A DNA stretch of 64,000 bases from Dyella amyloliquefaciens. Lineage in GTDB: Bacteria; Pseudomonadota; Gammaproteobacteria; Xanthomonadales; Rhodanobacteraceae. The stretch lies in contig NZ_SAYT01000002.1 in the NCBI RefSeq assembly GCF_004296575.1, positions 673,313-737,312 of the forward strand, in the 5' to 3' direction. Position 1 is the first letter of the stretch; every line of letters starts with the position of its first letter. Under the pieces are notes generated by a model. The model was not told the DNA's origin, ran no database searches, and saw nothing but the letters and a program-made list of their open reading frames with translations. Shown here piece after piece: positions 11,906 through 26,199 of the stretch. The position numbers were made by a program, and so were the translations under genes.

Positions 11906-13003
11906 TTACTGCTGGACCTGCAGCTCCGTACGACGGTTCTGGGCGCGGCCAGCATCCGTGTCGTTGCTGCCAATCGGATCGTTCTTGCCGTGACCGACCG
12001 GACCTTCCAGACGGCTGGCGGCGATGCCGTGAGCAGTCAGGTAGTCGAACACGATCTGAGCGCGACGCTCGGACAGATCCTGGTTGTAGGCGTCCTTACC
12101 GACCGAGTCGGTGTAGCCGGCAACGTTGACCTTGACCTGCGGGTAGCGCTGCAGGGTGTCCACAGCCTGGTCGAGGATGGCGATCGAGTCGGTGGTCGGC
12201 TCAGCCAGCGCCTTCTTGATGTCCTTCTCGCCCTTCTTCGGACGATCGAACTTGAAGTTGACGCCGCGCAGGTCGATCACGACCTTCTGCGGGCAGCCGT
12301 CCGGACCGACGATGGTGCCAGCCGGGGTGTTCGGGCACTTGTCGTCGCAATCGTTGACGCCGTCACCGTCGCTGTCGAGCTTCGAGCAGTCCGGAGCAGC
12401 CGGCGGCGGGGTTGCGGCCACCGGAGCAGCAGCCGGCTCGCCGAAGCGCGACACGATGCTGAAGCCCAGGAACCAGTCGCCGTAGCCGTTCTTCGCCGGC
12501 TGGGTCTTGTCGTCCCAGTCATAGCGGTAGCCAGCTTCGACGCGGATGTCGGTGCTGTCGGTGACGGTCTTGGACACGCCAGCGCCCAGCTCTGCAGCCG
12601 GCGACCAGCCGTGGTCGGCTGCGCTCTGGTGGTAGCTGCCCATCACGCCTGCGAGCAGGTACGGACGCCATGCGTTCCAGTCGCCGTAGTAGAAGCGAGC
12701 GGCAACGCCGTAGTTGTTGTTCGACCACTTGCCGCCAGCGTCGGCATCACGCTTGGTGCGGTCCACGAACAGGTCGATCGAGGTGTTCGGCGCAATGAAG
12801 CGACCAAAGCCCAGGCCGTAATAGACCTGACGGCTGTTGGTGTTGCGATCGGTGTCGTTGTAGTAGCCGCCCACGGTCGGAGCGATGTACCAACGGCCGT
12901 CATAGCTCGGCGTGGTCGCACCGGCAGTGTTGTCTTGCGCGTGAACGGCACCTACGCCGCCCAGGGCCAGGGCAATCAGGAAATACAAGCCCTTACGATT
13001 CAT
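11906..13003 (-). CDS. OmpA-family outer-membrane porin (copy 1)
   Basis: 365 residues. Signal peptide MNRKGLYFLIALALGGVGAVHA, an eight-strand OmpA-type beta-barrel (about 30-190), a Pro/Ala hinge (AAAPVAATPPPAAPD), a calcium-binding thrombospondin-3-like stretch (DSDGDGVNDCDDKCPNTPAGT) and a C-terminal peptidoglycan-binding OmpA domain with VAGYTDSVGKDAYNQDLSERRA. It tethers the outer membrane to the cell wall. Strong ribosome site AAGGAGACACCTG. Very similar to the next gene upstream (13372-14499), especially in the C-terminal 170 residues. The central N-terminal barrel loops are shorter here than in copy 2. Confidence 0.95.
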   Translation of the reverse strand: MNRKGLYFLIALALGGVGAVHAQDNTAGATTPSYDGRWYIAPTVGGYYNDTDRNTNSRQVYYGLGFGRFIAPNTSIDLFVDRTKRDADAGGKWSNNNYGVAARFYYGDWNAWRPYLLAGVMGSYHQSAADHGWSPAAELGAGVSKTVTDSTDIRVEAGYRYDWDDKTQPAKNGYGDWFLGFSIVSRFGEPAAAPVAATPPPAAPDCSKLDSDGDGVNDCDDKCPNTPAGTIVGPDGCPQKVVIDLRGVNFKFDRPKKGEKDIKKALAEPTTDSIAILDQAVDTLQRYPQVKVNVAGYTDSVGKDAYNQDLSERRAQIVFDYLTAHGIAASRLEGPVGHGKNDPIGSNDTDAGRAQNRRTELQVQQ

Positions 13004-13371: not shown

Positions 13372-14499
13372 TTACTGCTGGACCTGCAATTCCGTACGAC
13401 GGTTGCGGGCACGACCAGCATCCGTGTCGTTGGTGTCGATCGGATCGTTCTTGCCGTGACCGATCGGGCCTTCGAGACGGCTCGCGTCGACGCCATGCGA
13501 GGTCAGGTAGTCGTACACGATCTGAGCGCGACGCTCGGACAGGCTCTGGTTGTAGGCATCCTTACCGACAGAGTCGGTATAGCCGGCAACCGTGACCTTG
13601 ACCTGCGGATAGCGCTGCAGGGTATCAACTGCCTGGTCGAGAACCGCGATCGAATCCTTGCTCGGCTCAGCCAGCGACTTGCTGATGTCCTTCTCGCCCT
13701 TCTTCGGACGATCGAACTTGAAGTTGACGCCGCGCAGGTCGATCACGACCTTCTGCGGGCAACCATCCGGACCGACGATCGTGCCGGCCGGCGTGTTCGG
13801 GCACTTGTCGTCGCAATCGTTGACGCCATCGCCGTCGCTGTCCATCTTCGAGCAGTCCGGCGGCGGCGGCGGTGCTGCAACCACCGGCGCAGCAGCGGGC
13901 TCGCCGAAGCGGGACACGATGCTGAAGCCCAGGAACCAGTCGCCGTAACCGCTCTTGTTCGACTGGGTCTTGTCGTCCCAGTCATAGCGATAGCCCGCTT
14001 CGATGCGGATATCCGAACTGTCGGTGACGGTCTTGGAAACGCCCAGGCCGCCTTCCACTGCCGGATCCCAACCGTTGTCGTTGCTGTTCTGGTGGTAGCT
14101 GCCGATCACACCACCCAACAGGTACGGACGCCACGCGGTCCACTCACCGAAGTAGTAGCGTGCCGCCACGCCCCAGTTGTTGTTCGCCCACTTGCCGCCA
14201 TTGGTGGCTACACCATTGACCAACGTGTCGCGATCGCGCTTGGTGCGATCGAAGAACAGGTCGAGCGAGAAGTTGGGCGAGAAGAAGCGGCCGACACCGA
14301 GGCCATAGTAGAACTGGCGGCTGTTGGTGTTGCGGTCGGTGTCGTTGTAGTAACCACCCACGGTCGGGGCGATGTACCAGCGACCGTCATAGCTTGGCGT
14401 TGTGGTCGGAGCGGAAGTCGAAGTGTTGTCCTGCGCGTGAACGGCGCCTGCGCCGCCCAAGGCGAGGGCAATGAGCATGTACAAGCCCTTACGTTTCAT
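13372..14499 (-). CDS. OmpA-family outer-membrane porin (copy 2)
   Basis: 375 residues with the same layout as copy 1: signal peptide MKRKGLYMLIALALGGAGAVHA, OmpA-type barrel, Pro-rich hinge, DSDGDGVNDCDDKCPNTPAGT calcium-binding stretch and OmpA-like peptidoglycan domain (VAGYTDSVGKDAYNQSLSERRA). An extra loop (TLVNGVATNGGKW, about residues 105-115) is absent from copy 1. Same AAGGAGACACCTG-like ribosome site. Tandem paralogue in the same orientation with its own terminator, so the two can be expressed separately. Confidence 0.95.
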   Translation of the reverse strand: MKRKGLYMLIALALGGAGAVHAQDNTSTSAPTTTPSYDGRWYIAPTVGGYYNDTDRNTNSRQFYYGLGVGRFFSPNFSLDLFFDRTKRDRDTLVNGVATNGGKWANNNWGVAARYYFGEWTAWRPYLLGGVIGSYHQNSNDNGWDPAVEGGLGVSKTVTDSSDIRIEAGYRYDWDDKTQSNKSGYGDWFLGFSIVSRFGEPAAAPVVAAPPPPPDCSKMDSDGDGVNDCDDKCPNTPAGTIVGPDGCPQKVVIDLRGVNFKFDRPKKGEKDISKSLAEPSKDSIAVLDQAVDTLQRYPQVKVTVAGYTDSVGKDAYNQSLSERRAQIVYDYLTSHGVDASRLEGPIGHGKNDPIDTNDTDAGRARNRRTELQVQQ

Positions 14500-14707
14500 C
14501 AGGTGTCTCCTCGTTTATTGGTGTACGCGTCCGTTCACCCCAGACGGGAAAATCATCAGCCGTGAGTTCGAACTCCTATGAACCCGCCGACTTACCTACG
14601 GAACTTCGATGCTAGGTTTACCCGAAACGGGCGCGGAGTAGCTTAGCAAAAGTTAAACAATTGCAAATCGACCCCAAACGCCTGTTCATTTTCTGCTAAC
14701 GCCGTCT

Positions 14708-16159
14708 TTACAGCGTGAAGAGACCCAGGAAATCCTGAACCGGCATGGCGTCCAAGGTCTCCGGGTCAGCTGTCACGTCCAGAATGGCCCTCACCCGATG
14801 GGCTGGCAAGTGGCCGCGCAGGGCTGCCTCGAACTTCTTCAACAGTAGCGGGATGCCCTCGGCGCGGCGCTTGCGGTGGCCAATCGGGTAGTCGACGGAC
14901 ACCTTGTCAGTGTGGCTGCCGTCCTTGAAGAAGACCTGGACCGAGTTACCGATATAGCGCTTCCCGGGGTCATAGTAGTCCCTGGTGAATTGCGGGTTCT
15001 CGCTGACCACCGTCTTGTCGCGCAGGGCGTCGATGCACGGGTCGGCAGCCACCTCGTCGTTGTAGTCATCGGCGGTGAGGCGGCCGAAGATCAGCGGTAC
15101 GGCGACCATGTACTGGATGCAGTGGTCGCGGTCGGCGTAGTTGGCCAGGGGGCCGGTCTTGTCGATGATGCGGGCCCCCGCCTCCTGCGTCTCGATCACC
15201 ACCTTATCTATCTGGTCGAGCCGGCCGGCCACGGCGCCATGCAGCCTCATGGCGCACTCCACGGCCGTCTGGGCATGGAATTCGGCCGGGAAGCTGATCT
15301 TGAACAGCACGTTCTCCATGACGTAGCTGCCGAACGGCCGCTCGAACTGGAAGGCCTGGCCCTTGAAGGCCACGTCGTAGTAACCCCAGGTCTTGGCGCT
15401 GAGTGCCGAGGGGTAGCCGACCACGCCGCGGTAGACGGCATTGATGGCATGGGTGACGGCGCGACGGCAGGCGTCCCCGGCTGCCCAGCTCTTGCGGGGG
15501 CCGGTGTTCGGGGCGTGCCGGTAGGTCCGCAGGGATCCGTTGTCGATCCAGCTCTGCGAGATGGCGGTGACGATCTGCTCCCTGGTGCCGCCCAGCATGG
15601 CCGTGGCCACGGCGGTGGAGGCCAGGCGTACCAGGATCACGTGGTCCTGCCCGACGCGGTTGAAGCTGTTCTTGAGCGCGTAGCAGCCTTGGATCTCGTG
15701 GGCCTTGATGGCATAGGTGAGCACCTGGCGCACCGTCATCGGCGTACCGCCCTCCCGCTCCGCCTTGCGGCTGAGGTAGTCGGCGACGGCCAGGATGGCG
15801 CCAAGGTTGTCCGACGGGTGGCCCCATTCGGCAGCCAGCCAGGTGTCGTTGAAGTCCAGCCAGCGGATCTGCGTCCCGATCGCGAAAGCCGCCTGCACCG
15901 GGTCCAGCTCGTGGCTGGTGCCCGGTACGCGGGCGCCTCCCGGCAGTACGGCTCCGGGCACGACCGGCCCCAGATGCTTGACGCACTCGGGGAACTTCAT
16001 CGCGAGCATCGAGGTGCCCAGCGAGTCGAGGAGCATGTAGCGCGCGGTGTCGTAAGCCTCGGCGGACTCGATCCGGTAGTCGACGACGTAGTCGGCGACA
16101 TCGACCATCGGCTGGTCCGGATCGGGGCGCTTGGCGGAACGAAGATCAGGCTCGCTCAT
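14708..16159 (-). CDS. prpD: 2-methylcitrate dehydratase
   Basis: MmgE/PrpD family enzyme that dehydrates 2-methylcitrate to 2-methyl-cis-aconitate, the second step of the methylcitrate cycle. 483 residues, the same length as E. coli PrpD. Recognisable stretches include DFNDTWLAAEWGHPSDNLGAI, SWAAGDACRRAVTHA and SFPAEFHAQTAVECA. The start at 16159 has AGGAATCACCGG in front. It stands about 6.6 kb away from prpC-prpB and about 10 kb from prpE in this window, instead of between prpC and prpE as in enterobacteria; its promoter region is shared divergently with the Mn riboswitch-TerC gene. Confidence 0.95.
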   Translation of the reverse strand: MSEPDLRSAKRPDPDQPMVDVADYVVDYRIESAEAYDTARYMLLDSLGTSMLAMKFPECVKHLGPVVPGAVLPGGARVPGTSHELDPVQAAFAIGTQIRWLDFNDTWLAAEWGHPSDNLGAILAVADYLSRKAEREGGTPMTVRQVLTYAIKAHEIQGCYALKNSFNRVGQDHVILVRLASTAVATAMLGGTREQIVTAISQSWIDNGSLRTYRHAPNTGPRKSWAAGDACRRAVTHAINAVYRGVVGYPSALSAKTWGYYDVAFKGQAFQFERPFGSYVMENVLFKISFPAEFHAQTAVECAMRLHGAVAGRLDQIDKVVIETQEAGARIIDKTGPLANYADRDHCIQYMVAVPLIFGRLTADDYNDEVAADPCIDALRDKTVVSENPQFTRDYYDPGKRYIGNSVQVFFKDGSHTDKVSVDYPIGHRKRRAEGIPLLLKKFEAALRGHLPAHRVRAILDVTADPETLDAMPVQDFLGLFTL

Positions 16160-16264
16160 CCGGTGATTCCTAAGGCGACAGGGAAGCGATGGTAGCCCCG
16201 CCCTATGCATGGCTCAGGTGTTCTTGCTTGACCGGCCAGCGCCTGCACCCGGACAATGGACGGA

Positions 16265-16425
16265 CACTTATCCCAAAAGGGAGTAGTTCCGGACACCGAT
16301 GATTCGCGTGTCCTTGCGGTCGTCGTCATCACGGGCAGCACACTGCCCCGGTTACCGCAGCGGCTTTGCCGTGAACGAGACTTTTGCGGTAACGACGGGC
16401 TGCGCGTGTCCGTTGTTGCTGCATT
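16265..16425 (+). ncRNA. yybP-ykoY manganese riboswitch upstream of the TerC gene
   Basis: The leader contains the hallmark blocks of this riboswitch: GGGAGTAG near 16279, a paired CGTCGTCATCACG segment, then GGCTTTGCCGTGAACGAGAC (16362-16381) followed by TTTGCGGTAACGACGGGCTGC. The GAACGAGAC loop and the early GGGAGUAG are the metal-binding consensus parts. The class senses Mn2+ (alone or with pH) and controls Mn exporters, which fits the downstream TerC-family gene 25 bases on. Boundaries are approximate; a covariance-model scan would fix them. Confidence 0.88.
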
Positions 16426-16449
16426 GGTCCCACGCGCAGAGACACGTAC

Positions 16450-17133
16450 ATGGAACTGATGAGTACCGATTTTCTCTCCGGCCTGCTGGCCATCGTGCTG
16501 CTGGACCTCGTGCTCGCGGGCGACAACGCCATCGTGATCGCGCTCGCCGCGCGCAATCTCCCCAGGGACATCCAGAAGAAGGCCGTGCTCTGGGGTACCG
16601 TCGGCGCCATCGCGGTGCGCCTGGCGATGACGGGCATCGTCGTCTATCTGCTGGAGCTGCCTGGCCTGATGCTGGCCGGTGGCCTCCTGTTGCTGCCGAT
16701 CGCCTGGAAGCTGCTGAAGTCCGACGACAAGCCACACGATGTCGGTGCGGCCGCCAACTTCTGGGCAGCCATGCGCACGATCATCGTGGCCGATGCCCTG
16801 ATGGGGCTGGACAACGTACTGGCGATTGCCGGCGCATCCAAGGGGCACATGTCCCTGGTGGTGATCGGCCTGGCCATCAGCGTGCCCTTGGTGGTGTGGG
16901 GTTCCACCTTGATCCTGCGGCTGATAGAGCGCTTCCCCATCATCATCTATATCGGCGCGGCCGCCATTGCCTGGACGTCGGCACGCATGATCTCGCACGA
17001 CCACTGGCTGTCGCCGTGGTTCGACGCACATGGCTGGGCGACCTACACACTCGACGCCGTGCTGGTGCTGGGCGTCTGCCTCGGTGGCTGGCTGGTCCAG
17101 CGACGACGCACGCGTCTTGACGCAAAGGCTTGA
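16450..17133 (+). CDS. TerC/YjbE-family integral membrane protein, probable Mn2+ exporter
   Basis: 227 residues, about seven transmembrane segments. The two conserved acidic membrane motifs of the family are seen: LDLVLAGDNAIVIALA (about residues 19-34) and ADALMGLDNVLAIAGA (about 115-130). TerC/Alx relatives export manganese; control by the upstream yybP-ykoY element supports that here. The ATG at 16450 (MELMSTDF) is the first in frame after the riboswitch; the second Met at 16459 is an alternative. Confidence 0.9.
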   Translation: MELMSTDFLSGLLAIVLLDLVLAGDNAIVIALAARNLPRDIQKKAVLWGTVGAIAVRLAMTGIVVYLLELPGLMLAGGLLLLPIAWKLLKSDDKPHDVGAAANFWAAMRTIIVADALMGLDNVLAIAGASKGHMSLVVIGLAISVPLVVWGSTLILRLIERFPIIIYIGAAAIAWTSARMISHDHWLSPWFDAHGWATYTLDAVLVLGVCLGGWLVQRRRTRLDAKA

Positions 17134-17190
17134 GGCGCACAAGCCACGCAGGTGAAACTGCGTGGTTTCCGCAGACCAAGGAATGACCCC

Positions 17191-17802
17191 ATGAAGTTGT
17201 ACTACCTGCCCGGTGCCTGCTCGCTGGCCGACCACATCGTGCTCGAATGGATCGGCAAGCCGTACGAAACGTACCGGGTGGCGCGCGAGGAACTCGGCTC
17301 GCCGGAATACCTGAAGATCAATCCTTCCGGTGCGGTACCGGCGCTGCAGGAAGACGATGGCTGGGTGCTCACTGAAAACGCCGCGATCCTCAACTACCTC
17401 GCCGACCTCCATCCGGAAGCCGGGCTGGGCGGCGATGGTTCCGTGCGTGCGCGTGCCGAGGTGAATCGCTGGTTGGCCTATATCAATTCCGACCTGCACC
17501 CGCTGTTCCGCCCGGTATTTCGTCCGGATCGCTTCATCGATGACGCAACGGCCCAGGAAGCGTTGCGCGTGAAGTCCGTTGAGCGACTGCGCGCCTATTA
17601 CGAACGCCTCGACGCACAACTCGGAGGCAAGGACTGGTTGACCGGCTCCCGCTCGTACGCCGACCCGTATCTCTTCGTCGTGCTGCGCTGGGCCACGGCC
17701 AAGGGCGTCGACCTCGGCGGCCTGGACAACCTCGCACGCTTCCACCAGCGCATGCTGGAAGATGCCGGCGTGAAGTCGGCCATGCAGCAGGAAGGCCTGT
17801 AA
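17191..17802 (+). CDS. gstA: beta-class glutathione S-transferase
   Basis: 203 residues, closely resembling E. coli GstA over its length. The N-terminal thioredoxin-fold domain has the beta-class Cys10 (MKLYYLPGACSLADHI) and the cis-Pro motif GAVPALQ; the glutathione-gamma-Glu-binding TENAAI follows. The C-terminal helical domain has SYADPYLFVVLRWA. Ribosome site AAGGA 8 bases before the ATG at 17191. It follows the TerC gene by 57 bases on the same strand and may be co-transcribed. Cytosolic detoxification; the substrate is not known. Confidence 0.92.
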   Translation: MKLYYLPGACSLADHIVLEWIGKPYETYRVAREELGSPEYLKINPSGAVPALQEDDGWVLTENAAILNYLADLHPEAGLGGDGSVRARAEVNRWLAYINSDLHPLFRPVFRPDRFIDDATAQEALRVKSVERLRAYYERLDAQLGGKDWLTGSRSYADPYLFVVLRWATAKGVDLGGLDNLARFHQRMLEDAGVKSAMQQEGL

Positions 17803-17844
17803 TCGGGTCGGCAGCGTCGCTGGCACGCCCGCTCCCAGGGGGTT

Positions 17845-19305
17845 CTAGTACATCATCGGGACGCGCACGGTCACCGTCGCGTCCGGCGTGTCGCGGGTGA
17901 CGCCCACGCCGAGCGTGAAGTTGAGCGTGCGCTTCTCGTCGAAGCGCCACGATCCACCGATAAGCAGCGTGCCCAGGACGATCTTGGTCGAACCGGGTAC
18001 GCGCGACCCGTTCTGCTTGGTGGGGCCGACGAAGGCCTGCTCGTAGCCGATACTCATCGAGGCCTTCTCGTTGAGCGAAAGGCCCATGCCCAGGCTGAGG
18101 TCAACGATGCCGCCCGGCTGCACCTTGCCGAGCTGCTCGACGCCGCCCAGCAGGACATGCCGCTCGACGTTGTCGCGCGGTATGTTGTACAGATAGCTGA
18201 AGTTGCCGAACAGCACGATGGGGTCGGTGGGATAGAGCCAGGTGACACCCGGCTGCAGCGACCAGAAGCCGGTGCCCGTAGGCTGCTGCAATGGCAGCCC
18301 GGTGCCGGTGACCGACAGCGGAACTTCCGACAGCACGTTCTCCACGCAGCGCTGGATGCAATCGGTGGTGACCTGGAATGGGTCCTTGCCGGTGTTGGAC
18401 TTCACACGGAACCAGCCGACGTAGAACGGCTTGTCCGGACCGCCGACATTGAGCTGGTAGCGTATCGTCGCCTCGATGTCGCCCAGGCCATGCCCGCTGG
18501 TGCCAAACGCGTTGTCGGCCGCGGTACCGGTGAAGATCTCGCGACTGATGGTGTCTTCGTTGGTCCACACATAGGGCACGCGAAGTTCCACTTCCATCCG
18601 ATCGGTGATGCCGTAGCGGCCGGTCAGCCAGCCGATCTGCGTGGTGGTCTTCACCTCTCGAGCATCGATCAGGCCGATGAGGATCGCGGGAATCACCGTA
18701 TAGCCGACCAGCGCGACGCGATCGACCGAGGAATAACCGAACTGGTAAGCCGGCTCGATGACGAATTTCCCCTTGGGTGTGAGCACGCCGGGCTGCTGGA
18801 AAATGGGGGCCACTTCGGGAGGACGCGTATCGGGCTTCGGTGCTTCACCGACGGGTTGCTGCTGAGGCGCGTCGGCCGCCACCGCTTCGGCGGCAGGCAT
18901 GGGCAACGCGGATGCACCCGGCCCACCGGCGGCGATGCTGCCGGCACGCTGCTTGTCCAGCACGTCGATGCCCACGGCATGGCGCAGCGACTGATAGTCG
19001 GCCTCCTGCTGCGCCAACGCTCGCTTCATCTCATCAAGCTGGGCCATCTGCGCGCTGATCTGGCTGCGCATGGCATCGATGCGTTCGCCCTGCTCGACCA
19101 CCTTCTTGCGAATGTCAGTCGGGTCCGCCGCCGCGGGCGCTCCAGTGGGAGCCGCCGGGATGGGGTTCGCCGCCACCGGTGGTGGCGTACCCGTCGCCGC
19201 ACCCGCAGGCGCTCCCACCTGTTGGGCCGCGACAGGCAGGCCGAGCATCACCAGCCCCGCACATCCTGCCGACCATACGTATCGCCACGCTGAGTGTCGC
19301 ATCAT
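17845..19305 (-). CDS. FapF-like outer-membrane secretion pore (coiled-coil plus beta-barrel)
   Basis: 486 residues. Signal peptide to about residue 27, an Ala/Pro-rich segment, a coiled coil at about 63-110 (DIRKKVVEQGERIDAMRSQI onward), a flexible linker rich in Ala/Pro/Gln (about 120-165), then a C-terminal beta-barrel starting at PKGKFVIEPAYQFGYSSVDR and ending in alternating strands to RVPMMY. This architecture is that of FapF, the trimeric pore that exports Pseudomonas functional amyloid. It is the last gene of a five-gene run with a C39 protease, as in fap operons. Ribosome site GAGGAAGC. Without alignment the assignment rests on architecture and neighbours. Confidence 0.72.
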   Translation of the reverse strand: MMRHSAWRYVWSAGCAGLVMLGLPVAAQQVGAPAGAATGTPPPVAANPIPAAPTGAPAAADPTDIRKKVVEQGERIDAMRSQISAQMAQLDEMKRALAQQEADYQSLRHAVGIDVLDKQRAGSIAAGGPGASALPMPAAEAVAADAPQQQPVGEAPKPDTRPPEVAPIFQQPGVLTPKGKFVIEPAYQFGYSSVDRVALVGYTVIPAILIGLIDAREVKTTTQIGWLTGRYGITDRMEVELRVPYVWTNEDTISREIFTGTAADNAFGTSGHGLGDIEATIRYQLNVGGPDKPFYVGWFRVKSNTGKDPFQVTTDCIQRCVENVLSEVPLSVTGTGLPLQQPTGTGFWSLQPGVTWLYPTDPIVLFGNFSYLYNIPRDNVERHVLLGGVEQLGKVQPGGIVDLSLGMGLSLNEKASMSIGYEQAFVGPTKQNGSRVPGSTKIVLGTLLIGGSWRFDEKRTLNFTLGVGVTRDTPDATVTVRVPMMY

Positions 19306-19405
19306 GCTTCCTCATGATCCGGGGTTCGAAGTCCTGCGGACGAACGCGGAGACGGTGCTCGGCGCGTTCGCGGGTGGATACGACACTGGTGCAGCGCATC
19401 GCATG

Positions 19406-19996
19406 TCAGTGCCCAAGGGCCTGCAGTTGCGCCTGCTGGAACGCATCCTGGAAATTCGCCTGGCGGAATGCGTTGATCGTGTTGACCGACGTATTGATCG
19501 TCGTGATGCTCTGGATGTGCTGGTTGTTCAGCGTGTTCTGGATCACCGTCGCCCCCACGTTGGGTCCGAGCGACGATGGATCGAAACTGTTGTTCGGCCC
19601 TATCTGGGTCACCGTGACCGTATTGATCGCCGTCTGCATGGCCGTCGCCTGCGCGGTGGTCATGTGCGCGATGTCAGGAATGTTGAAGCTGGTGGACGTC
19701 ACAAGGTTGCCGTTGACGTAGACCGCGCGATCGATGCCGAACGATGCGACCAGTCCGTTGCCGAGATCGAAGCCACCGCGCGCATCGTCCAGCGTTTCCT
19801 GGCTCACCGGCGTCCAGCTCGCCATGTCATCCGTTGCGGGGACGGCAACCACGTTGGCGAGCGCTGCAGCCGGTGCTGCGGGGGCCGCAGTAACAGGCAT
19901 CTGCGCGGCGCCATCCTGGGCGCTTGCACCCGGCATCCATGGCCCGCATGCCACGATCAGGGCAGCAAGGCCAGCTATGCGTGTGACCGGTTTCAT
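19406..19996 (-). CDS. small secreted protein of the Fap-like cluster (FapE-like position)
   Basis: 196 residues with a signal peptide (MKPVTRIAGLAALIVACGPWMPGASA). After a short Ala-rich stretch comes LDDARGGFDLGNGLVASFGIDRAVYVNGNL, then a Gln/Asn/Thr-rich tail (TVTQIGPNNSFDPSSLGPNV, IQNTLNNQHIQSITTINTSV) and a Gln-rich end. Position between the C39 protease and the pore matches fapE. Q/N-rich beta-prone composition suggests a fibre-associated or tip component. Ten bases separate it from the protease gene upstream. Function is inferred from context only. Confidence 0.6.
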   Translation of the reverse strand: MKPVTRIAGLAALIVACGPWMPGASAQDGAAQMPVTAAPAAPAAALANVVAVPATDDMASWTPVSQETLDDARGGFDLGNGLVASFGIDRAVYVNGNLVTSTSFNIPDIAHMTTAQATAMQTAINTVTVTQIGPNNSFDPSSLGPNVGATVIQNTLNNQHIQSITTINTSVNTINAFRQANFQDAFQQAQLQALGH

Positions 19997-20006
19997 CGTC
20001 CCGTCC

Positions 20007-20693
20007 TCACAAGTCGTCCGGCCCGTACTTGGGCATCACAGTGTTGTAGAGACCGTTGCGGTCGATCGCATTACTGAGCGGCGCTCCCGGTGCGACTCTC
20101 CAATCGCTCGCACTGTTGAATACCGCCAGGTTGCGGCGGTTGTGGATGACGAACACCAAGCCGTTCTTCCACATCGACATGAACTTCGTCTGCGAAAGCA
20201 CGCGCGTGCCGCGTGCCGGATCGCCAACGAGAATGCGGCCATTGCGCATGCCCTTCACGACCACGAAATGGTGATAGCCCTTTTCATCGATCAGGACGAT
20301 GGCAGGCAGGTTCTCCTGCTCCAGCTTGTCCAGCGGCACCTTGTAACCGTCCGCCTGGAAGCCGTTCGCCTCGAGGAAGCGCTTGATGTCGAGCAGCGAG
20401 AAACCTTCGCGGTTGATCTTGGCCTGGTCGCCATGCGTATACATCTGCTCGAACGCGACCTGCTCGTTGATCGGATAACCGTATTGATAGGTAAGCAGCG
20501 TCGCCACGGCGGCCGAGCCGCAGCTGAAGTCGTACTTCTGGTGGATGGTGGCCTTGTAGCGCGCTTCCTTCACGCTGGTCAGGTGCACCGTATACATGCC
20601 GGTCGAACCACCCGCCACGGCGACGGGAGTGGTGGCGTGGCCTTCCAGCGGGAGCGCCGCGATCAGGATCCACAGCGCTGCCCACTTGCTCAT
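20007..20693 (-). CDS. C39-family cysteine protease of the Fap-like cluster (FapD-like)
   Basis: 228 residues with a signal peptide, so it acts in the periplasm. The papain-like C39 residues are visible: Gln52 and Cys58 in HQKYDFSCGSAA, His142 in GYHHFVVVKG and Asp158 in VGDPARG. Stand-alone secreted C39 proteases are the FapD component of amyloid secretion and are thought to process the exported subunits. The start ATG overlaps the stop of the upstream gene (ATGA), so translation is coupled. Unlike bacteriocin exporters there is no ABC-transporter domain attached. Confidence 0.82.
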   Translation of the reverse strand: MSKWAALWILIAALPLEGHATTPVAVAGGSTGMYTVHLTSVKEARYKATIHQKYDFSCGSAAVATLLTYQYGYPINEQVAFEQMYTHGDQAKINREGFSLLDIKRFLEANGFQADGYKVPLDKLEQENLPAIVLIDEKGYHHFVVVKGMRNGRILVGDPARGTRVLSQTKFMSMWKNGLVFVIHNRRNLAVFNSASDWRVAPGAPLSNAIDRNGLYNTVMPKYGPDDL

Positions 20694-21109
20694 GGCTGGA
20701 ACTGGACGTTGAGGACGGTGGCGTTCTGGATCAGGACACTGTTGCCTGAATTCTGGATCACCGTCGGAAAACCGGTAGCGCCGCTGAGCGAATTGCCTGT
20801 GATCAGGTTGCTTCCAGACACCGTGTTTTCGACACTATTGTCGGACACCGTGCCGGTCAGCGTGGTGTTCTGCTGGACCAGCGTTCCTCCGCTCAGGTCA
20901 GCCAGGGTGGCGTTGTCAACGCTGGCCCCGAGATCGCCCACGACGTTCTCGTGCTCGATGCGCGTCGCGGCGACATACACGGCTATCGGCGAGTCGGCGC
21001 CATCGGCCAGATAAGCCGAAGGAATCTCCGCGTCTTTCGCGCAAAGCACCGCGGGTGCGCCCAAGGCGCAGCATGCGGTAATACCAAGCATCCACTTGAA
21101 CGATCGCAC
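20690..21109 (-). CDS. small secreted protein of the Fap-like cluster
   Basis: 139 residues from a GTG start at 21109, chosen because GGGGAG lies 8 bases upstream and the product then has a clean signal peptide (RSFKWMLGITACCALGAPAV). The mature part is rich in Ser/Thr/Asn/Gln with strand-forming alternation, e.g. LVQQNTTLTGTVSDNSVENT, and ends QNSGNSVLIQNATVLNVQFQ. The C-terminal QNSG...SxxIQ pattern echoes the end of the Gly-rich gene upstream (QNSGAASLVQQSVNVQ), hinting at a shared assembly or recognition motif. Overlaps the C39 protease gene by 4 bases. Role unknown: chaperone, minor subunit or nucleator. Confidence 0.6.
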   Translation of the reverse strand: MRSFKWMLGITACCALGAPAVLCAKDAEIPSAYLADGADSPIAVYVAATRIEHENVVGDLGASVDNATLADLSGGTLVQQNTTLTGTVSDNSVENTVSGSNLITGNSLSGATGFPTVIQNSGNSVLIQNATVLNVQFQP

Positions 21110-21240
21110 GGCACAATCTCCCCGGGCGCGAGGCACCCATTCGATCGAAGCACGCATCAATCAGTCGTCCCTGAAGACGGCCGTCTTTCAGCACCGCGCA
21201 CGATGGGGCAAACGCCCCATCGTGCGTGGACTCCTCACAC

Positions 21241-22281
21241 TTAGTGACCCAGATTCAGGTTGGCCTGAACGTTCACGCTCTGCTGTACCAGCGAGGCTGC
21301 GCCGCTGTTCTGGGCAAGAATCGACACGCCTGCCGCTGCCGCGGCCGAACCGTTCATCTGGTTCGACATGTCGAACGCACCCGTCGTGGCATAAGCCGTG
21401 CCGCCTGCGCCACCGGCGCCACCGGCTCCGCCGGTACCTGCGCCACCCGTGCCGCCCGTACCTGAACCGCCCGCTCCAGCCGCACCGCCCGTGCTGGAGG
21501 CGTAGCCCGAGGTACCGCCCGTGGCGGACGACGAACCGCTGTAGCTGCTCGGCGATGCAGCACCCGAGCTGCCAGCACCGCCTGCACCGCCAGCGCCGCC
21601 GGCGCCACCGGCACCGCCAGTACCGCCAGTTGCGGTGCCGCCACCGGCCATACCACTGCCGCCGCCTGCACGAGCGCGGCTGTGGCTATTGGCATTGGCG
21701 TCGCCGCCGTCGTTGCCGCCGCCGCCGCTGGCGCCACTGCCGCCGCCGGCAAGCGATGCACCGAGAGCGCCCGAATCACCCGACGAACTGCCGGAGCCAC
21801 CGGCCCGGCCACTACGTGCGTGAGCGCTGCCGCCGTCGCCGCCGTCGCCGCCGTTGCCGCCAATGGCCTTGCCGCCACGGCCGTCACCGCCGCTTCCGCC
21901 ACGGCCGCCATTGGCATTGCCGTTATTGGTCGCGGAGTTGCCGATGTCGCTCACGCTGACTTTGCTGACGGTGCCACTCAGATCGCTGTTGGCAACGGCA
22001 GTGCTGGTGTTGAATGCGTCGGAGAACGAAGCGGTAGCAGTTCCGCCGTTATTGGCTGCCGCGGTACCTGCACCGGCTGCGGCCGCATCGCCCGAGTTGA
22101 ACGCATCCGTGAAGGTCTTGGTATGCGTGCTTGAGTTGGTATGTGTGCTCGAGTTGGTATTGCTGTGCGTACTTGAATCGGTCAGATTGCTGCTTCCATG
22201 GGAAGTGTTGTCATCCGCGAAAGCCGGGAGTGCCAATCCCAGTCCCAATACGATCGCGGTCGCAATTAGAGTCTTACGCAT
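21241..22281 (-). CDS. silk-like Gly-rich secreted protein, candidate fibre subunit
   Basis: 346 residues, first gene of the cluster, with AGGAG 8 bases before the ATG. Order of regions: signal peptide (to ADD, about 23); Ser/Thr/His-rich repeat (SSTHTNSSTHTK); two FTDAFN/FSDAFN copies (about 57-90); a long Gly/Ala/Ser region (about 120-300) with GGAGGAGGAGGAG runs; C-terminal FDMSNQMNG...GVSILAQNSGAASLVQQSVN. The simple GGA repeats look like silk or glycine-rich structural proteins. Gene databases often label such proteins 'heme utilization'; nothing here supports that. If the cluster secretes amyloid, this is the likely bulk subunit, though it lacks obvious FapB/FapC Q/N repeats. Confidence 0.68.
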   Translation of the reverse strand: MRKTLIATAIVLGLGLALPAFADDNTSHGSSNLTDSSTHSNTNSSTHTNSSTHTKTFTDAFNSGDAAAAGAGTAAANNGGTATASFSDAFNTSTAVANSDLSGTVSKVSVSDIGNSATNNGNANGGRGGSGGDGRGGKAIGGNGGDGGDGGSAHARSGRAGGSGSSSGDSGALGASLAGGGSGASGGGGNDGGDANANSHSRARAGGGSGMAGGGTATGGTGGAGGAGGAGGAGGAGSSGAASPSSYSGSSSATGGTSGYASSTGGAAGAGGSGTGGTGGAGTGGAGGAGGAGGTAYATTGAFDMSNQMNGSAAAAAGVSILAQNSGAASLVQQSVNVQANLNLGH

Positions 22282-22675
22282 GGTTATTACTCCTGGAACG
22301 ATGCGGTGACCCCCTGTGTAGCTGGTGTTGCTGATCCAGCAAGTTGTAAACGCAACATGCGTGCCACCACGCCCACTCGCCTGTTCAGGCTCGGGAACCT
22401 CATGAAATCAGGCGGTTGAAGAGACTCACTGGCAGTGAGTCGCAGCTCTATTCAGGGTGCCAGGAGCGAAACTGATTCATACCTGTTACGCGCGATAGGA
22501 AGACCGGTATAGAACGTGCTCTTTAGACCCGCAGGCATCGCTCGAAAAATCAGCACGTTGTGGCACCTTTTGAGGCGAACTCCGCAGTGCGTGACAGCTG
22601 TATCAATTGCTTTACACCCGTGCACACAAAACGATAGCAATGTCGTACAGGCTCATGAACCCAAACGAAAGTTAA
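22282..22675. other. promoter region of the Fap-like cluster; no gene seen
   Basis: About 390 bases between the Gly-rich gene start and the prpC terminator. Base composition is lower in GC than the flanks. Contains the 19-bp dyad at 22423-22441. Short open frames here have no ribosome site and no recognisable composition. Confidence 0.6.
22423..22441. promoter_or_regulatory. perfect 19-bp dyad upstream of the Fap-like cluster
   Basis: GACTCACTG, one central G, then CAGTGAGTC: perfect 9-bp arms 142 bases upstream of the first gene of the cluster. The short spacing between arms suits a homodimeric repressor or activator. No regulator gene is adjacent. Confidence 0.5.
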
Positions 22676-22712
22676 GGAAAAAAGAAGGGAGCCTTGCGGG
22701 CTCCCTTCTTTC
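22676..22712 (-). terminator. intrinsic terminator of prpC
   Basis: Minus strand: stem GAAGGGAGCC / GGCTCCCTTC with a short loop, then TTTTTT; begins about 25 bases after the prpC stop. Confidence 0.92.
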
Positions 22713-22731
22713 ATGACGACGGCGTGTCGTG

Positions 22732-23877
22732 TCAGCGCTTTTCGATCGGTACGTAGACCTGGTCTTCAGGGCCCGTGTAGTTGGCGCTGGGACGGATGAT
22801 CTTTCCGTCGATGCGCTGCTCGATCACGTGGGCGCTCCAGCCGGAGGTGCGGGCGATCACGAACAGCGGGGTGAACATGGCCGTCGGCACGCCCATCATG
22901 TGATACGCGCTGGCCGAGAACCAGTCGAGGTTCGGGAACATCTTCTTCTGTTCCCACATCAGCTTCTCGATCTTCTCCGACACGTCGAACAGGGTCGGAT
23001 TACCACCCTCGGTGCAGAGCTTGCGCGAGACTTCCTTGATGATCTCGTTGCGCGGATCGGACACGGTGTACACCGGGTGGCCGAAGCCGATGATGATTTC
23101 CTTGCGCTCGACGCGCGCACGGATGTCCGCTTCCGCCTCAGCCGCATTGCGGTAGCGCGCGATGATTTCCATCGCCACTTCGTTGGCGCCGCCGTGCTTG
23201 GGACCACGCAGCGCGCCGATGGCGCCGGTGATGGCCGAGTACATGTCCGAACCGGTACCGGCGATGACGCGAGCGGTAAAGGTGGACGCGTTGAACTCGT
23301 GCTCGGCATAGAGCACCAGCGACTTGTCCAGCGAATGCGCATGCAGCTCGCTCGGCTTCTTGCCGTGCAGCAGGTGCAGGAAGTGACCGGCAATCGACTC
23401 GTCGTCGGTCTCCGTCTCGATGCGCTTGCCGTTGTGGCTGAAGTGGAACCAGTACAGCAGCATCGAGCCGAAACTGGCCATCAGACGGTCGGCGATGTCA
23501 CACGCGCCGGTGAGGTTGTGGTCGTCTTTTTCCGGCAGCACCGTACCCAGCACCGAACAACCCGTGCGCATCACGTCCATCGGGTGGGTGGCAGCCGGCA
23601 GCAGCTCCAGCGCGTTCTTCACCGGCGCAGGCAGGCCGCGCAGGCGCTTGAGCTTGGCGCGATAGGCATTCAGTTCCGCCCAGTTCGGCAGCACGCCGTG
23701 GACCAGAAGGTAAGCCACTTCCTCGAAGCAGCCCTTGGCCGCCAGGTCATGGATGTCGTAGCCGCGGTAATGCAGGTCGTTGCCGCTGCGGCCCACCGTG
23801 CACAGCGCGGTGTTGCCTGCAGCCACGCCCGACAGCGCGACGGATTTCTTGGGCTTGGGAAGGGTTTGCTCGCTCAT
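22732..23877 (-). CDS. prpC: 2-methylcitrate synthase
   Basis: Condenses propionyl-CoA with oxaloacetate to 2-methylcitrate. 381 residues, citrate-synthase fold. Catalytic residues seen: His in EHEFNASTF, His in GPKHGGANE, His in [14 protein letters not shown] and Asp in [14 protein letters not shown]. The GFGHPVY and [10 protein letters not shown] signatures are those of methylcitrate rather than housekeeping citrate synthase. Lies 79 bases downstream of prpB on the same strand; together they form a prpBC unit ending at a strong terminator. Confidence 0.95.
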
Positions 23878-23956
23878 GGGATACGTCTCCTCAAATGCAT
23901 GCGTCTATGGCCGGCCGTGACCCCCTCGCCACGGCCTGGCAAATGGATCGGCCCGC

Positions 23957-24844
23957 TCAGGCCTTCTTGTTGGCGAACAGGGCGTCGAGCTTGTCCTCGT
24001 AGGCGTGGTAGCCGAGGTAGTCGTACAGGTCCGCGCGCGTCTGCAGCGTGTCGATGATGTTCTTCTGCGTGCCTTCGCGGCGAACCGTCTCGTAGAAGTT
24101 GAGCGCGGCCTTGTTCATGGCGCGATAGGCGCCGCAGCAATACAGCGCGATGTCCACGTTGGCGGTGCGCAGATCATCGGTGGTGAAGAACGGCGTGGAA
24201 CCGAACTCGGTGAGGTTGGCCAGGATCGGCACCTTCACGGCGGCGCGGAAGCGACGATAATCGTCCAGCGTCTTCATGGCCTCCGGGAAGATCATGTCGG
24301 CGCCGGCCTCGACGTAAGCGCAGGCACGATCGATCGCGGCGTCGATGCCTTCCACGGCAGCCGCATCGGTGCGCGCCATGATCACGAAGCCGGCGTCGGT
24401 GCGGGCATCCACGGCCGCCTTCACGCGGTCGACCATCTCTTCCTTGGGCACCACTTCCTTGCCCGGGCGATGGCCGCAACGCTTCTGGCCCACCTGGTCC
24501 TCGATATGCACCGCCGCCACGCCCACGTTGATGAACGAGCGGATGGTGCGGCCGATGTTGAATGCACCGCCCCAACCGGTATCGATATCGACCAGCAGCG
24601 GCATCTGGGTGGCATCAACGATGCGGCGGGCATCGGTGAGCACGTCTTCCATGGTGGAGATGCCCAGGTCCGGCATGCCCAGCGAGTTGGCGGCCACGCC
24701 GCCACCCGAGAGGTACAGCGCCTTATAGCCCACGCGCTTGGCCATCAGGCCGGCATAGGCGGTGATGGCGCCCATCACCTGGAGAGGACTTTCGGCGGCA
24801 ACGGCAGCACGGAAACGTGCGCCAGCAGATTCGGTGTGGGACAT
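23957..24844 (-). CDS. prpB: 2-methylisocitrate lyase
   Basis: Cleaves 2-methylisocitrate to pyruvate and succinate. 295 residues, isocitrate-lyase superfamily barrel. The active-site loop [10 protein letters not shown] (Cys-Gly-His) and the metal-binding DIDTGWGG are present, as is [10 protein letters not shown]. Start ATG at 24844 with GGAGAA 8 bases upstream; the frame runs 7 codons further without a ribosome site. First gene of prpBC, divergent from the HTH-citrate-synthase regulator candidate, with about 140 bases between them. Confidence 0.95.
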
Positions 24845-24947
24845 GGTGGTTCTCCGAAACCTCATATTCTAGGTGATGCGATGACTACGCCGTGTCGCGG
24901 CGCAGTAGGCGCCGAGGCATGGCGGACATGCTGTCACCGGCCGATGT

Positions 24948-24975
24948 ATTGATCAATCTTGATCCACAGGATCAA
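24948..24975. promoter_or_regulatory. overlapping AT-rich dyads between prpB and the HTH-citrate-synthase gene
   Basis: ATTGATCAAT (24948-24957) is a perfect 10-bp palindrome; TTGATCC ACA GGATCAA (24959-24975) is a 7-bp inverted repeat. Both share TTGATC half-sites and form an AT-rich island in GC-rich DNA, 10-37 bases before the proposed start at 24985. A likely operator for self-control or for prpB. Confidence 0.55.
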
Positions 24976-24984
24976 TATGTCGCC

Positions 24985-26199
24985 ATGAGAGCCGATTACC
25001 TTTCCGCCCAGGAAGCCGCCACACGCCTAGGCATAAGCGCCGCCACGCTCTACGCCTACGTGAGCCGCGGCAAGATCGATTCACGCCCCGGCGCCGACGG
25101 ACGCAGCCGCGAGTACCTGGCTGACGACATCGAGCGCCTGATCAAACGCCGCCAGGCCGGCCGGGGCGCGGCAAAGGCCGCGGCGGATAGCCTTACCTGG
25201 GGTCTGCCGGTGCTGGAGACGCGCATTTCGCTCATCCGGCCACATGGCCACTATTACCGCGGCGAATCGGCCATCGCGCTGGCCACGCAAGGCGCCAGCC
25301 TGGAAGACGTGGCCCGATTGCTGTGGGGTGGCGATGTCGATCCGTTCGCCCCCATGCCGCCGCGCACGTGGCCCAGCGCCGTGGCCGGCCTGATGCGCAG
25401 GGACGACATCCCCCCGCAGGAACGTACCGCGGCGGCCCTGCCCCTGATCGCCCTCACCTCGCCGTTTACCCACAGCTCTGACGCCCAGCAACGCAAGGAA
25501 TGTGCGGCACGCCTGCTGCGCGAGACAGCTGCCCTGCTGTGTGGCACCCGGCCCAGCCACCAGCCCATTCACCGCGTGATGGCGGAGAGCTGGCGTGCCG
25601 GCGATGAAGGGTTGGCCGAGATCGTGCGCAGCACCCTGGTGCTGTGCGCCGATCACGAACTCAACGCCTCCGCTTTTGCGACGCGCGTGGCCGCCTCGAC
25701 CGGCGCCAGCCTGCACGCGGCGGTCAGCGCCGGATTGGCTGCGCTGTCCGGACCGCAACATGGCGGCGCCGCCGCCCGCGCCTACGCGTTGATCCAGGAA
25801 GCGCAGCGCGACCGTCGCCCGGCCGACCACGTGCGTGAACGCCTGCGCCGCGGCGACGAGCTGCCAGCCTTCGGACACCCGCTCTATCCGGACGGCGATC
25901 CACGCGCGGCGCTGCTGTTGCGCATGCTCGACGACATGCGTCCACGCCTGGGCGGGCTGCTGCGCATCCGCCAGCTGATCGATGCCGTGCACGACAGCGT
26001 GGGTCGCCCGCCGAGCCTCGATTTTGCGCTGGCCGCGATTGCGACGCTGTACGGGCTCGGTGCGCACGCCGCCCTGTCTCTATTCGCCGCGGGTCGCATG
26101 GCCGGATGGCTGGCCCACGCGCTGGAACAGCAGGATTACGGCGGGCTGATCCGCCCGCGCGCCAACTACGCCGGCACCCTGCCCGGCCGGCGCGACTGA
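24985..26199 (+). CDS. HTH-citrate synthase fusion, candidate regulator of the methylcitrate genes
   Basis: 404 residues. An N-terminal excisionase/MerR-like helix-turn-helix (YLSAQEAATRLGISAATLYAYVSRG, residues 5-29) is joined to a full citrate-synthase domain (about 75-400). The catalytic set looks intact: His224 (DHELNAS), His259 (GPQHGGA), His298 (AFGHPLY) and Asp346 (SLDFAL). It could therefore be a transcription factor that uses a citrate-synthase fold to sense CoA esters or methylcitrate, or an active enzyme with DNA-binding ability. Start 24985 is preferred because homologous HTH proteins begin just before the helix-turn-helix and the operator-like dyads lie right upstream; ATG at 24919 is the alternative. 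Divergent from prpB, convergent with prpE. Confidence 0.82.
   Translation: MRADYLSAQEAATRLGISAATLYAYVSRGKIDSRPGADGRSREYLADDIERLIKRRQAGRGAAKAAADSLTWGLPVLETRISLIRPHGHYYRGESAIALATQGASLEDVARLLWGGDVDPFAPMPPRTWPSAVAGLMRRDDIPPQERTAAALPLIALTSPFTHSSDAQQRKECAARLLRETAALLCGTRPSHQPIHRVMAESWRAGDEGLAEIVRSTLVLCADHELNASAFATRVAASTGASLHAAVSAGLAALSGPQHGGAAARAYALIQEAQRDRRPADHVRERLRRGDELPAFGHPLYPDGDPRAALLLRMLDDMRPRLGGLLRIRQLIDAVHDSVGRPPSLDFALAAIATLYGLGAHAALSLFAAGRMAGWLAHALEQQDYGGLIRPRANYAGTLPGRRD

Follow-up and report, generated by a model that had tools for sequence, protein, structure and literature searches.

A Fap-related operon of Dyella amyloliquefaciens with a glycine-rich candidate fibre subunit and conserved double-glycine sites

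A five-gene operon of Dyella amyloliquefaciens encodes a protease and an outer-membrane pore related to those of the Fap system (fapABCDEF) of Pseudomonas, together with a glycine-rich secreted protein. The operon is located in a 64,000-nucleotide stretch of DNA (RefSeq assembly GCF_004296575.1, contig NZ_SAYT01000002.1, positions 673,313 to 737,312 of the forward strand), which we call the window; all coordinates are counted from its first letter. The genes and their products are named A to E in the order in which they lie on the minus strand. Judged by sequence, C is homologous to FapD, and D is FapE-like in its position and leader segment. E is homologous to FapF by profile, PDB sequence and fold. 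We regard A-B-C-D-E as probably, though far from certainly, a system for secretion and assembly of extracellular fibres that forms a sister clade within the Fap family and acts as a whole by the mechanism proposed below. That the machine works like Fap is well supported as far as the protease and pore are concerned. By its subunits, by FapA and by the curated profile cut-offs the system is not Fap proper, and we file it as a sister variant.

The five open reading frames (ORFs) run from 22281 to 17845 on the minus strand, in agreement with a sequence-only reading of the window, which had described five secreted-protein genes in one direction. Gene A (21241..22281) encodes a secreted glycine-rich subunit of 346 residues, composed of a signal peptide, a conserved N-block, a GGA-rich stretch and one C-terminal repeat. 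Gene B (20690..21109) encodes a small secreted protein of 139 residues that also carries one C-terminal repeat. The listed ORF of B (21160-20690, 156 residues) begins with TTG; the conserved start is the GTG at 21109, with GGGGAG upstream. The B and C ORFs overlap by four bases. C (20007..20693, 228 residues) is a FapD-like C39 cysteine protease with a signal-peptide-like N-terminus, and is followed by the FapE-like D (19406..19996, 196 residues) and the FapF-like outer-membrane pore E (17845..19305, 486 residues). The order of protease, small protein and pore is that of fapD-E-F, as had been proposed. The label "Q/N protein" given earlier to B and D is generous, as glutamine and asparagine make up 11% of the listed B ORF and 16% of D.

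Protein C is a stand-alone protease that starts with a signal-peptide-like stretch and lacks an ATP-binding cassette (ABC) module. It matches the Pfam family Peptidase_C39 (E-value 3.8e-23) and is closest by profile to NCBIfam FapD (NF058616; E-value 2.5e-41, 141 bits), without reaching the curated cut-off of 330. The profile of FilB, the C39 peptidase of a putative pilus system, gives an E-value of 2.5e-37 and 129 bits (NF050078; curated cut-off 475, not reached). The catalytic residues Cys58, His142 and Asp158 are as the sequence-only reading had assigned them, and together with Q52 they are invariant in 78 of 78 aligned copies of C, the window included.

The pore E matches NCBIfam FapF over residues 81-484 (NF058560; E-value 2e-40, 139 bits; curated cut-off 700, not reached), and FilC over its C-terminal 143 residues (37 bits; curated cut-off 630, not reached). 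Among PDB sequences it matches the FapF crystal structure 5o67 (E-value 2.5e-24). An AlphaFold2 model of E, built from 41 sequences with a mean predicted local distance difference test score (pLDDT) of 68.7 and a predicted TM-score (pTM) of 0.56, contains helices at residues 62-111 and 113-124, a low-confidence linker at 124-172 and a barrel from residue 181, which bears out the N-terminal coiled coil and β-barrel read from the sequence. The first 18 Foldseek matches of the model are all FapF chains (best E-value 9.8e-21; TM-score to target 0.79-0.85), and the next is the COG4313 channel 4rl8. The nearest named E, among the matches listed, is that of Dyella sp. EPa41, with 90% identity. A pore of an unrelated transporter family and a lantibiotic-type protease had been named beforehand as outcomes that would speak against a link to Fap; the nearest families are FapF and FapD. 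The suggested search with Fap family profiles thus finds C and E, and gives no NCBIfam match at E-value ≤ 1 for A, B or D, the FapE model included.

The arrangement A-B-C-D-E is preserved in 23 of 23 fetched orthologous loci of the host family, Rhodanobacteraceae, and in 12 of 12 orthologue-class loci of a second family, where a contig end cuts A in locus L082. Since the gene order is kept across orthologous loci, the five-gene arrangement is not due to chance. The named loci comprise the best 80 of 519 relatives in the scan, a sample that leans to close relatives. All five genes are present in order in 77 of these, with A shortened by the contig start in L135, L174 and L177. Two of the three exceptions, L166 and L173, are cut further in at the 5' end and were left out of the D alignment; the third, L170, contains E alone. 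This locus, from Paraburkholderia sp. Tr-20389, has no A-D on the strand of its E homologue in the 6.4 kb upstream.

Two classes of E are present in Rhodanobacteraceae. A search with E finds matches in 77 of 147 family genomes: the orthologue class (56-90% identity, plus the window itself) in 57, the distant class (24-29% identity) in 29, and both in nine; two short extra rows (G090, G047) were not counted as separate systems. A profile of B, built from 24 sequences, matches exactly the same 57 genomes as orthologue-class E. All 17 fetched loci of the distant class are fapA-B-C-D-E-F operons. Because true fap operons coexist with it in nine of the 147 genomes, A-B-C-D-E constitutes a sister system. 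In a midpoint-rooted tree of concatenated C and E from 54 loci, 26 canonical Fap systems are separated from 28 of the A-B-C-D-E kind, the node of the 28 having a support of 0.88. As a positive control, a canonical Fap operon of Rhodanobacteraceae (L057) matches all six NCBIfam Fap models below their cut-offs; its 236 bits for FapD and 375 bits for FapF miss the curated values of 330 and 700 as well.

At higher ranks, matches to E are found in 92 of 299 genomes of the host order and 29 of 274 of the host class. Eight class loci with 40-50% identity were fetched (L088-L095), and in 8 of 8 both C and E score best with profiles of the A-B-C-D-E system. E is on the opposite strand in L088, L093 and L094, and A, B and D of L095 are visible by eye only. 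Among the 80 best named loci the carriers belong to Dyella, Rhodanobacter, Luteibacter, Fulvimonas, Lysobacter, Luteimonas and Pseudoxanthomonas, and further to Cupriavidus, Ralstonia, Paraburkholderia, Pandoraea and others. Cupriavidus metallidurans CH34 carries all five genes on its megaplasmid record NC_007974.2, which makes it a tractable host. A plasmid of the alphaproteobacterium Polymorphobacter (L188, 4641-9020) has the same five-gene layout, with an A protein rich in N, R, A, S, G, Y, N and T. Its genes are annotated just as hypothetical proteins and "C39 family peptidase", and both C (197 against 162 bits for FapD) and E (242 against 145 bits for FapF) score higher with the A-B-C-D-E system profiles. 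In an Indioceanicola plasmid the profiles match an E-like pore only; the PLSDB annotation is empty for this stretch and for that of CH34.

Two further loci were noted during the scan. A Vibrio plasmid (L187, 7878-12667) contains homologues of E, B, C and D, and its C39 gene appears to be broken into two reading frames. A contig titled Candidatus Eremiobacteraeota (L130) contains an operon like those of Rhodanobacteraceae, with prpB/prpC, TerC and PrpD neighbours, and is probably misbinned. In the literature we found no title or abstract beginning that describes the A-B-C-D-E clade. The accessible text of a 2018 Fap review reports fapD/fapF pairs in five further phyla without describing their subunits and, in that part, names none of Cupriavidus, Dyella, Rhodanobacter, Luteibacter and Lysobacter (PMC6173800).

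The most useful result is a conserved candidate C39 site. According to the available portions of two sources, C39 leaders follow the pattern L(-12)xxxE(-8)L(-7)xxxxG(-2)G(-1), residues -4, -7 and -12 dock in a groove of the protease, and the cut follows GG, GA or GS (PMC6959990, PMC6363468). D and B carry putative cleavage sites in the published -12/-7/-2/-1 register. The D site, V-S-Q-E-T-L-D-D-A-R-G-G (19772..19807, minus strand), would be cut before F76, and the B site, V-D-N-A-T-L-A-D-L-S-G-G (20885..20920, minus strand), before T, its last glycine being G75 of the GTG form and G92 of the listed ORF. Site counts refer to 78 copies, namely the window and 77 full-length named copies. The consensus of D is V-S-x-x-x-L-D-x-x-R-G-G-F, with L-7, G-2 and G-1 in 78/78 and R-3 in 77/78; position -12 is V, L, I or A, position -4 is V, M, I, L or A in 58/78, and the residue after the double glycine is F in 66, Y in nine, M in two and L in one. 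The consensus of B is V-x-x-x-x-L-x-x-x-[SR]-G-G, with L-7 and G-2 in 78/78, G-1 in 77/78 (one Ser), V, I, M or L at -12 in 70/78, and L, M, Y, V or I at -4 in 69/78. Among the 77 named copies without the window, the double glycine is present in D of 77 and in B of 76. The fit to the published leader is thus good at -12, -7, -2 and -1 and partial at -4. A loose form of the pattern occurs by chance in 0.6% of single shuffled sequences of D and 1.4% of those of B; the main evidence for the sites is conservation, rather than these rates. R-G-G is also visible by eye in all eight distant D proteins and in that of Polymorphobacter.

A matching segment, ending in M/L/I-R-G-R/K, is present in 25 of 30 canonical FapE sequences examined; the other five lack the motif in the called frame. 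In the 25 motif-bearing sequences position -12 is V, I or L, E-8 is present in 20, and the remaining positions are L/M-7, M/L/I-4, R-3, G-2 and R/K-1. The segment lies 45-60 residues from the start in 17 copies from Rhodanobacteraceae. In the parts available, a study of Fap processing reports that the catalytic cysteine of FapD is required for FapC secretion and that the target of FapD is unclear; by peptide coverage FapE was the only Fap protein with complete N-terminal processing, with no peptides from its first ~70 residues, and FapF was raised as a possible target (PMC5557850). A 2025 review, as far as its text was available, states that FapD is "thought to" process FapE and FapF (PMC12822426). 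Because every aligned full-length D has the double-glycine site and FapE a matching segment, the debated substrate of FapD becomes directly testable in a one-protein cleavage assay. E contains a weaker double-glycine-like site at the junction of coiled coil and linker (residues 111-122; 18940..18975, minus strand), which reads A-G in the window. Among 81 copies, L-7 is present in 78, R-3 in 79 and V, L, I or M at -12 in 81, and positions -2/-1 are GG in 41, AG in 25, GA in three and other residues in 12.

Protein A is the presumed bulk subunit. It begins with a signal-peptide-like stretch, followed by a conserved block (residues 83-126; 21904..22035), a low-complexity insertion of Gly, Ala and Ser (residues 127-300; 21382..21903) and a conserved C-terminus with a single putative assembly repeat (residues 303-343; 21253..21375), all on the minus strand. 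Residues 116-300 contain 43% Gly, 18% Ala and 15% Ser, and the protein holds 10 GGA triplets, in keeping with the glycine-rich first protein noted earlier. A and B have no Pfam match at E-value ≤ 1. For D, Pfam gives nothing convincing (DUF2673, E-value 0.031, below its cut-off).

The repeat was recognised through distant relatives. In loci L088 and L093, A is an array of four ~37-residue repeats, for example N-T-I-x-D-N-A-F-Q-x-A-E-G-I-T-Q-V-Q-Q-N-N-G-x-N-N-A-M-Q-Q-G-x-A-V. A of L089, L090 and L092 consists of an S-, D- and N-rich chain with one repeat at its end; A of L094 also ends in one repeat, and that of L091 was seen only in its last part. We collected 10 repeats from five loci (three from L088, four from L093 and one each from L089-L091) with a regular expression that missed one repeat of L088 and those of L092 and L094. 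A hidden Markov model (HMM) of the repeat matches residues 310-343 of A with 20.6 bits (E-value 8e-8) and residues 100-132 of the 139-residue form of B with 20.6 bits for the protein; these E-values refer to a set of five sequences, and those of hhalign to one comparison each. By hhalign, the C-termini of A and B match the repeat set with probabilities of 96.9% and 96.5%, respectively, each unequalled in 60 column shuffles. The set in turn matches the FapB repeats (87%, 0/60 column shuffles) and, barely above the shuffles, those of FapC (34%, 0/60; 20.6 against 20.5). The C-terminus of D gives no significant match to the set; the C-terminal parts of D and B resemble each other (80%, 0/60 shuffles). 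The earlier statement that A lacks repeats of the FapB/FapC type therefore stands for direct matches, canonical repeat HMMs included, and fails in that A has a single repeat of the kind found in its relatives.

The N-block of A resembles the segment found immediately before the repeat in L089-L092 and L094 (hhalign 88%, E-value 2.9e-6, 0/60 column shuffles); the corresponding segment of B does so weakly (21%, 0/60 shuffles). As the two adjoin in these relatives, the Gly-rich stretch appears, by sequence comparison, to split a domain that is unbroken there. In L089-L092 and L188, A has low-complexity sequences of another kind. The tree favours no direction of change: L088 and L093, with their four repeats, lie outside the Gly-rich and SDN-rich groups, but the one-repeat L094 groups with them, and L095, in which no repeat was recognised, is outermost.

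A sigma-54 (RpoN) -24/-12 promoter-like element, TGGCACGCATGTTGC (22352..22366, minus strand), is located 85 nt before the start of A, and is also present in 10 of 10 Dyella upstream regions aligned with the window. At least eight of nine consensus positions are found 50-135 nt upstream in 63 of 75 regions, the window included, against 1.9% of 20,000 random stretches, and at least seven of nine in 71 of 75 against 10.7%. A stricter pattern is found within 500 nt in 30 of 74. Upstream of canonical fapA of Rhodanobacteraceae (L055-L071), at least eight of nine positions are matched 40-60 nt from the gene in 17 of 17. These elements extend a finding in P. fluorescens PF07: by the accessible parts of the reports, the fapA start mapped there has a -24/-12 element in front of it, deletion of rpoN lowers the expression of fap genes, and cyclic diguanylate (c-di-GMP) is the signal sensed by the activator BrfA (PMC9207406, PMC13101488). 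No sigma-70 promoter or terminator around the operon exceeds shuffled sequences.

We hypothesize the following mechanism. Transcription from the sigma-54 promoter would imply that an enhancer-binding activator, linked to c-di-GMP in Pseudomonas fap, switches the operon on in biofilm conditions. All five products would cross the inner membrane by Sec. In the periplasm, C would bind the 12-residue leader (V-12, L-7, G-2 G-1) in D and B and cut after the double glycine, removing about 75 residues, and this cleavage may license D and B to engage a trimer of E, a FapF-type pore with a periplasmic coiled coil. E itself could be cut at the coiled-coil/linker junction, for which the signal is weaker. 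A would leave unfolded through E. Outside the cell, the single C-terminal repeats of A and B may stack into a thin cross-β core, from which the ~175-residue Gly-rich stretch of A would emerge as a flexible arm or loop, giving a bottlebrush fibre.

Several observations weigh against this reading. C is nearly as near to FilB as to FapD. Compared by hhalign, D matches canonical FapE with 95% when the signal peptide is kept and with 75% when it is removed, and the latter match covers no more than 31 columns about the leader site and is partly built in, the sequences having been cut at the motif. After the site there is no match (42/60 shuffles as high), and a local FapE HMM gives D 8 bits. D was therefore dropped as a full-length FapE homologue, only the leader segment matching without the signal peptide, and our confidence in a fibre system of the Fap family is lowered slightly, as is that in the wider branch proposed below. 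Position -4 of D is T, S, E or Q in 18 of 78 copies. The Glu -8 of the published leader is not kept, with -8 being R in 43, T in 11, Q in 10 and K in five of the 78 copies of D, and mostly T, A or K in those of B. By eye, B proteins of the seven distant loci with a B match and of Polymorphobacter have no double glycine at this place, so B is not a universal substrate. The degenerate site in E could be no more than the place where the coiled coil ends, and a plug helix is missing from the linker in the AlphaFold2 model of this protein. For A, AlphaFold2 gives a mean pLDDT of 43 and no fold, and so speaks neither for nor against a polyglycine-helix bundle, which we had considered. Compared directly, the C-terminus of A has no significant match to FapB or FapC repeats (4/60 and 32/60 shuffles as high). 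Matches of 50-61% between A and FapC, FapE and FapF were discarded, since they lie in columns 1-26, the signal peptide. A regular-expression search for GAFTGA or Walker motifs finds no activator in the window.

The strongest alternative is that the operon is an ordinary divergent Fap system, whose product is a cross-β amyloid of the FapC kind with the Gly-rich stretch as a long variable linker. We consider this rather unlikely, yet deserving of weight. The two systems share a FapD-type C39 protease, a FapE-like leader segment, a FapF-type pore, the order D-E-F and a sigma-54 element before the operon, and the repeat of A and B, alike within the clade, is distantly related to FapB repeats through the relatives' set. 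The FapA chaperone is often lost in Fap, and FapB and FapC usually have three repeats. FapC length, according to the accessible part of a survey, varies mainly via the linkers (PMC3792158). Against this alternative, the canonical operons stand apart in the tree of C and E and coexist with A-B-C-D-E in the same genomes, and A, B and D match no NCBIfam model at E-value ≤ 1, whereas the control operon matches all six. Within A-B-C-D-E we found neither a three-repeat FapB/FapC nor FapA, for which there is no NCBIfam match and at most 7.5 bits, on B, with a local HMM. The operon has instead a Gly-rich subunit with one repeat, its domain split by the insertion, an extra small protein B and full double-glycine sites, and its C and E score well below the curated FapD and FapF cut-offs.

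Another alternative, which we consider improbable, would make A an adhesin or coat protein of the cell surface, present singly or as a gel, and the system an exporter of the Fil or adhesin type. The near-equal scores of C with FilB and FapD (129 and 141 bits) and the lack of a predicted fold in A would fit such a role. E, however, matches FapF much better than FilC (139 against 37 bits), FilC being matched weakly and over the C-terminal 143 residues only, and stacking is suggested by the repeat that A and B have in common with the four-repeat relatives.

Export of a processed peptide such as a bacteriocin or signal, with D or B as its double-glycine precursor, is very improbable. D and B do have double-glycine leaders, the solved relatives of C are bacteriocin-type C39 domains, and the C39 domains of the peptidase-containing exporters PCAT1 and LahT recognise leaders in the same -12/-7/-2/-1 register with a mostly hydrophobic -4. 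In PCAT1 and LahT the protease is fused to the transporter, whereas C is free, starts like a secreted protein and occurs beside a FapF-like pore; its FapD score is far above that of the best bacteriocin-transporter model (141 against 57 bits). Unlike the leaders of those exporters, the sites in D and B lie ~75 residues into proteins with their own signal peptides and do not keep Glu -8. That E is an uptake channel of the COG4313/Phenol_MetA type in an incidental neighbourhood is hardly credible: a related barrel fold, a weak Pfam match to Phenol_MetA_deg (18 bits, cut-off 22) and the place of 4rl8 as the next fold match are outweighed by the 18 FapF chains ranked above 4rl8 and by the strict linkage of E with the C39 protease and B. 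According to the available text of the 2018 review, no C39 partner had been reported for COG4313 channels (PMC6173800).

If A-B-C-D-E is a fibre system of the Fap family, it may be part of something wider. We tentatively propose, with less confidence than in the fibre system itself, that Gamma-, Beta- and some Alphaproteobacteria hold a second Fap-superfamily branch. Its exported subunit would have a single cross-β repeat in place of an array and would form spidroin-like bottlebrush fibres; a low-complexity chain that differs between lineages (Gly-rich in Xanthomonadales and Burkholderiaceae, and in other carriers SDN-rich or NRASGYNT-rich) would interrupt this repeat or stand before it. A FapD-type protease would mature D, B and perhaps E at one double-glycine code, of which the L-x-x-M-R-G-R/K of canonical FapE would be a variant. 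The loci offer a series made by nature, in which machines of one kind presumably export different polymers (four repeats; one repeat with an SDN-rich chain; one split repeat with a Gly-rich chain); it is of interest for the evolution of amyloids and for silk-like materials.

In most Rhodanobacteraceae loci the operon is flanked upstream by prpB-like and prpC-like genes, and downstream by TerC, often with GST and PrpD (~14700-24900 in the window). This neighbourhood was not found in the Lysobacter, Luteimonas and Cupriavidus loci examined. Its recurrence suggests long vertical inheritance of the operon within Rhodanobacteraceae. Rfam has no match in 17000-24000 of the window. In 11 of 11 Dyella sequences aligned, counting the window, a block of ~60 nt (~22600-22664, ~320-385 nt upstream of A) shows strong conservation. 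It has no Rfam match and might be an activator site, or else mark where the prpC transcript ends. An ORF on the plus strand (24892-26199), divergent from the prpB-like gene beside prpC, fuses an HTH_17 domain to a citrate synthase domain, and perhaps encodes a ligand-sensing regulator of propionate metabolism. Two adjacent and very similar OmpA-family proteins of 365 and 375 residues are encoded on the minus strand at 11906-13003 and 13372-14499, apparently as the result of a tandem duplication.

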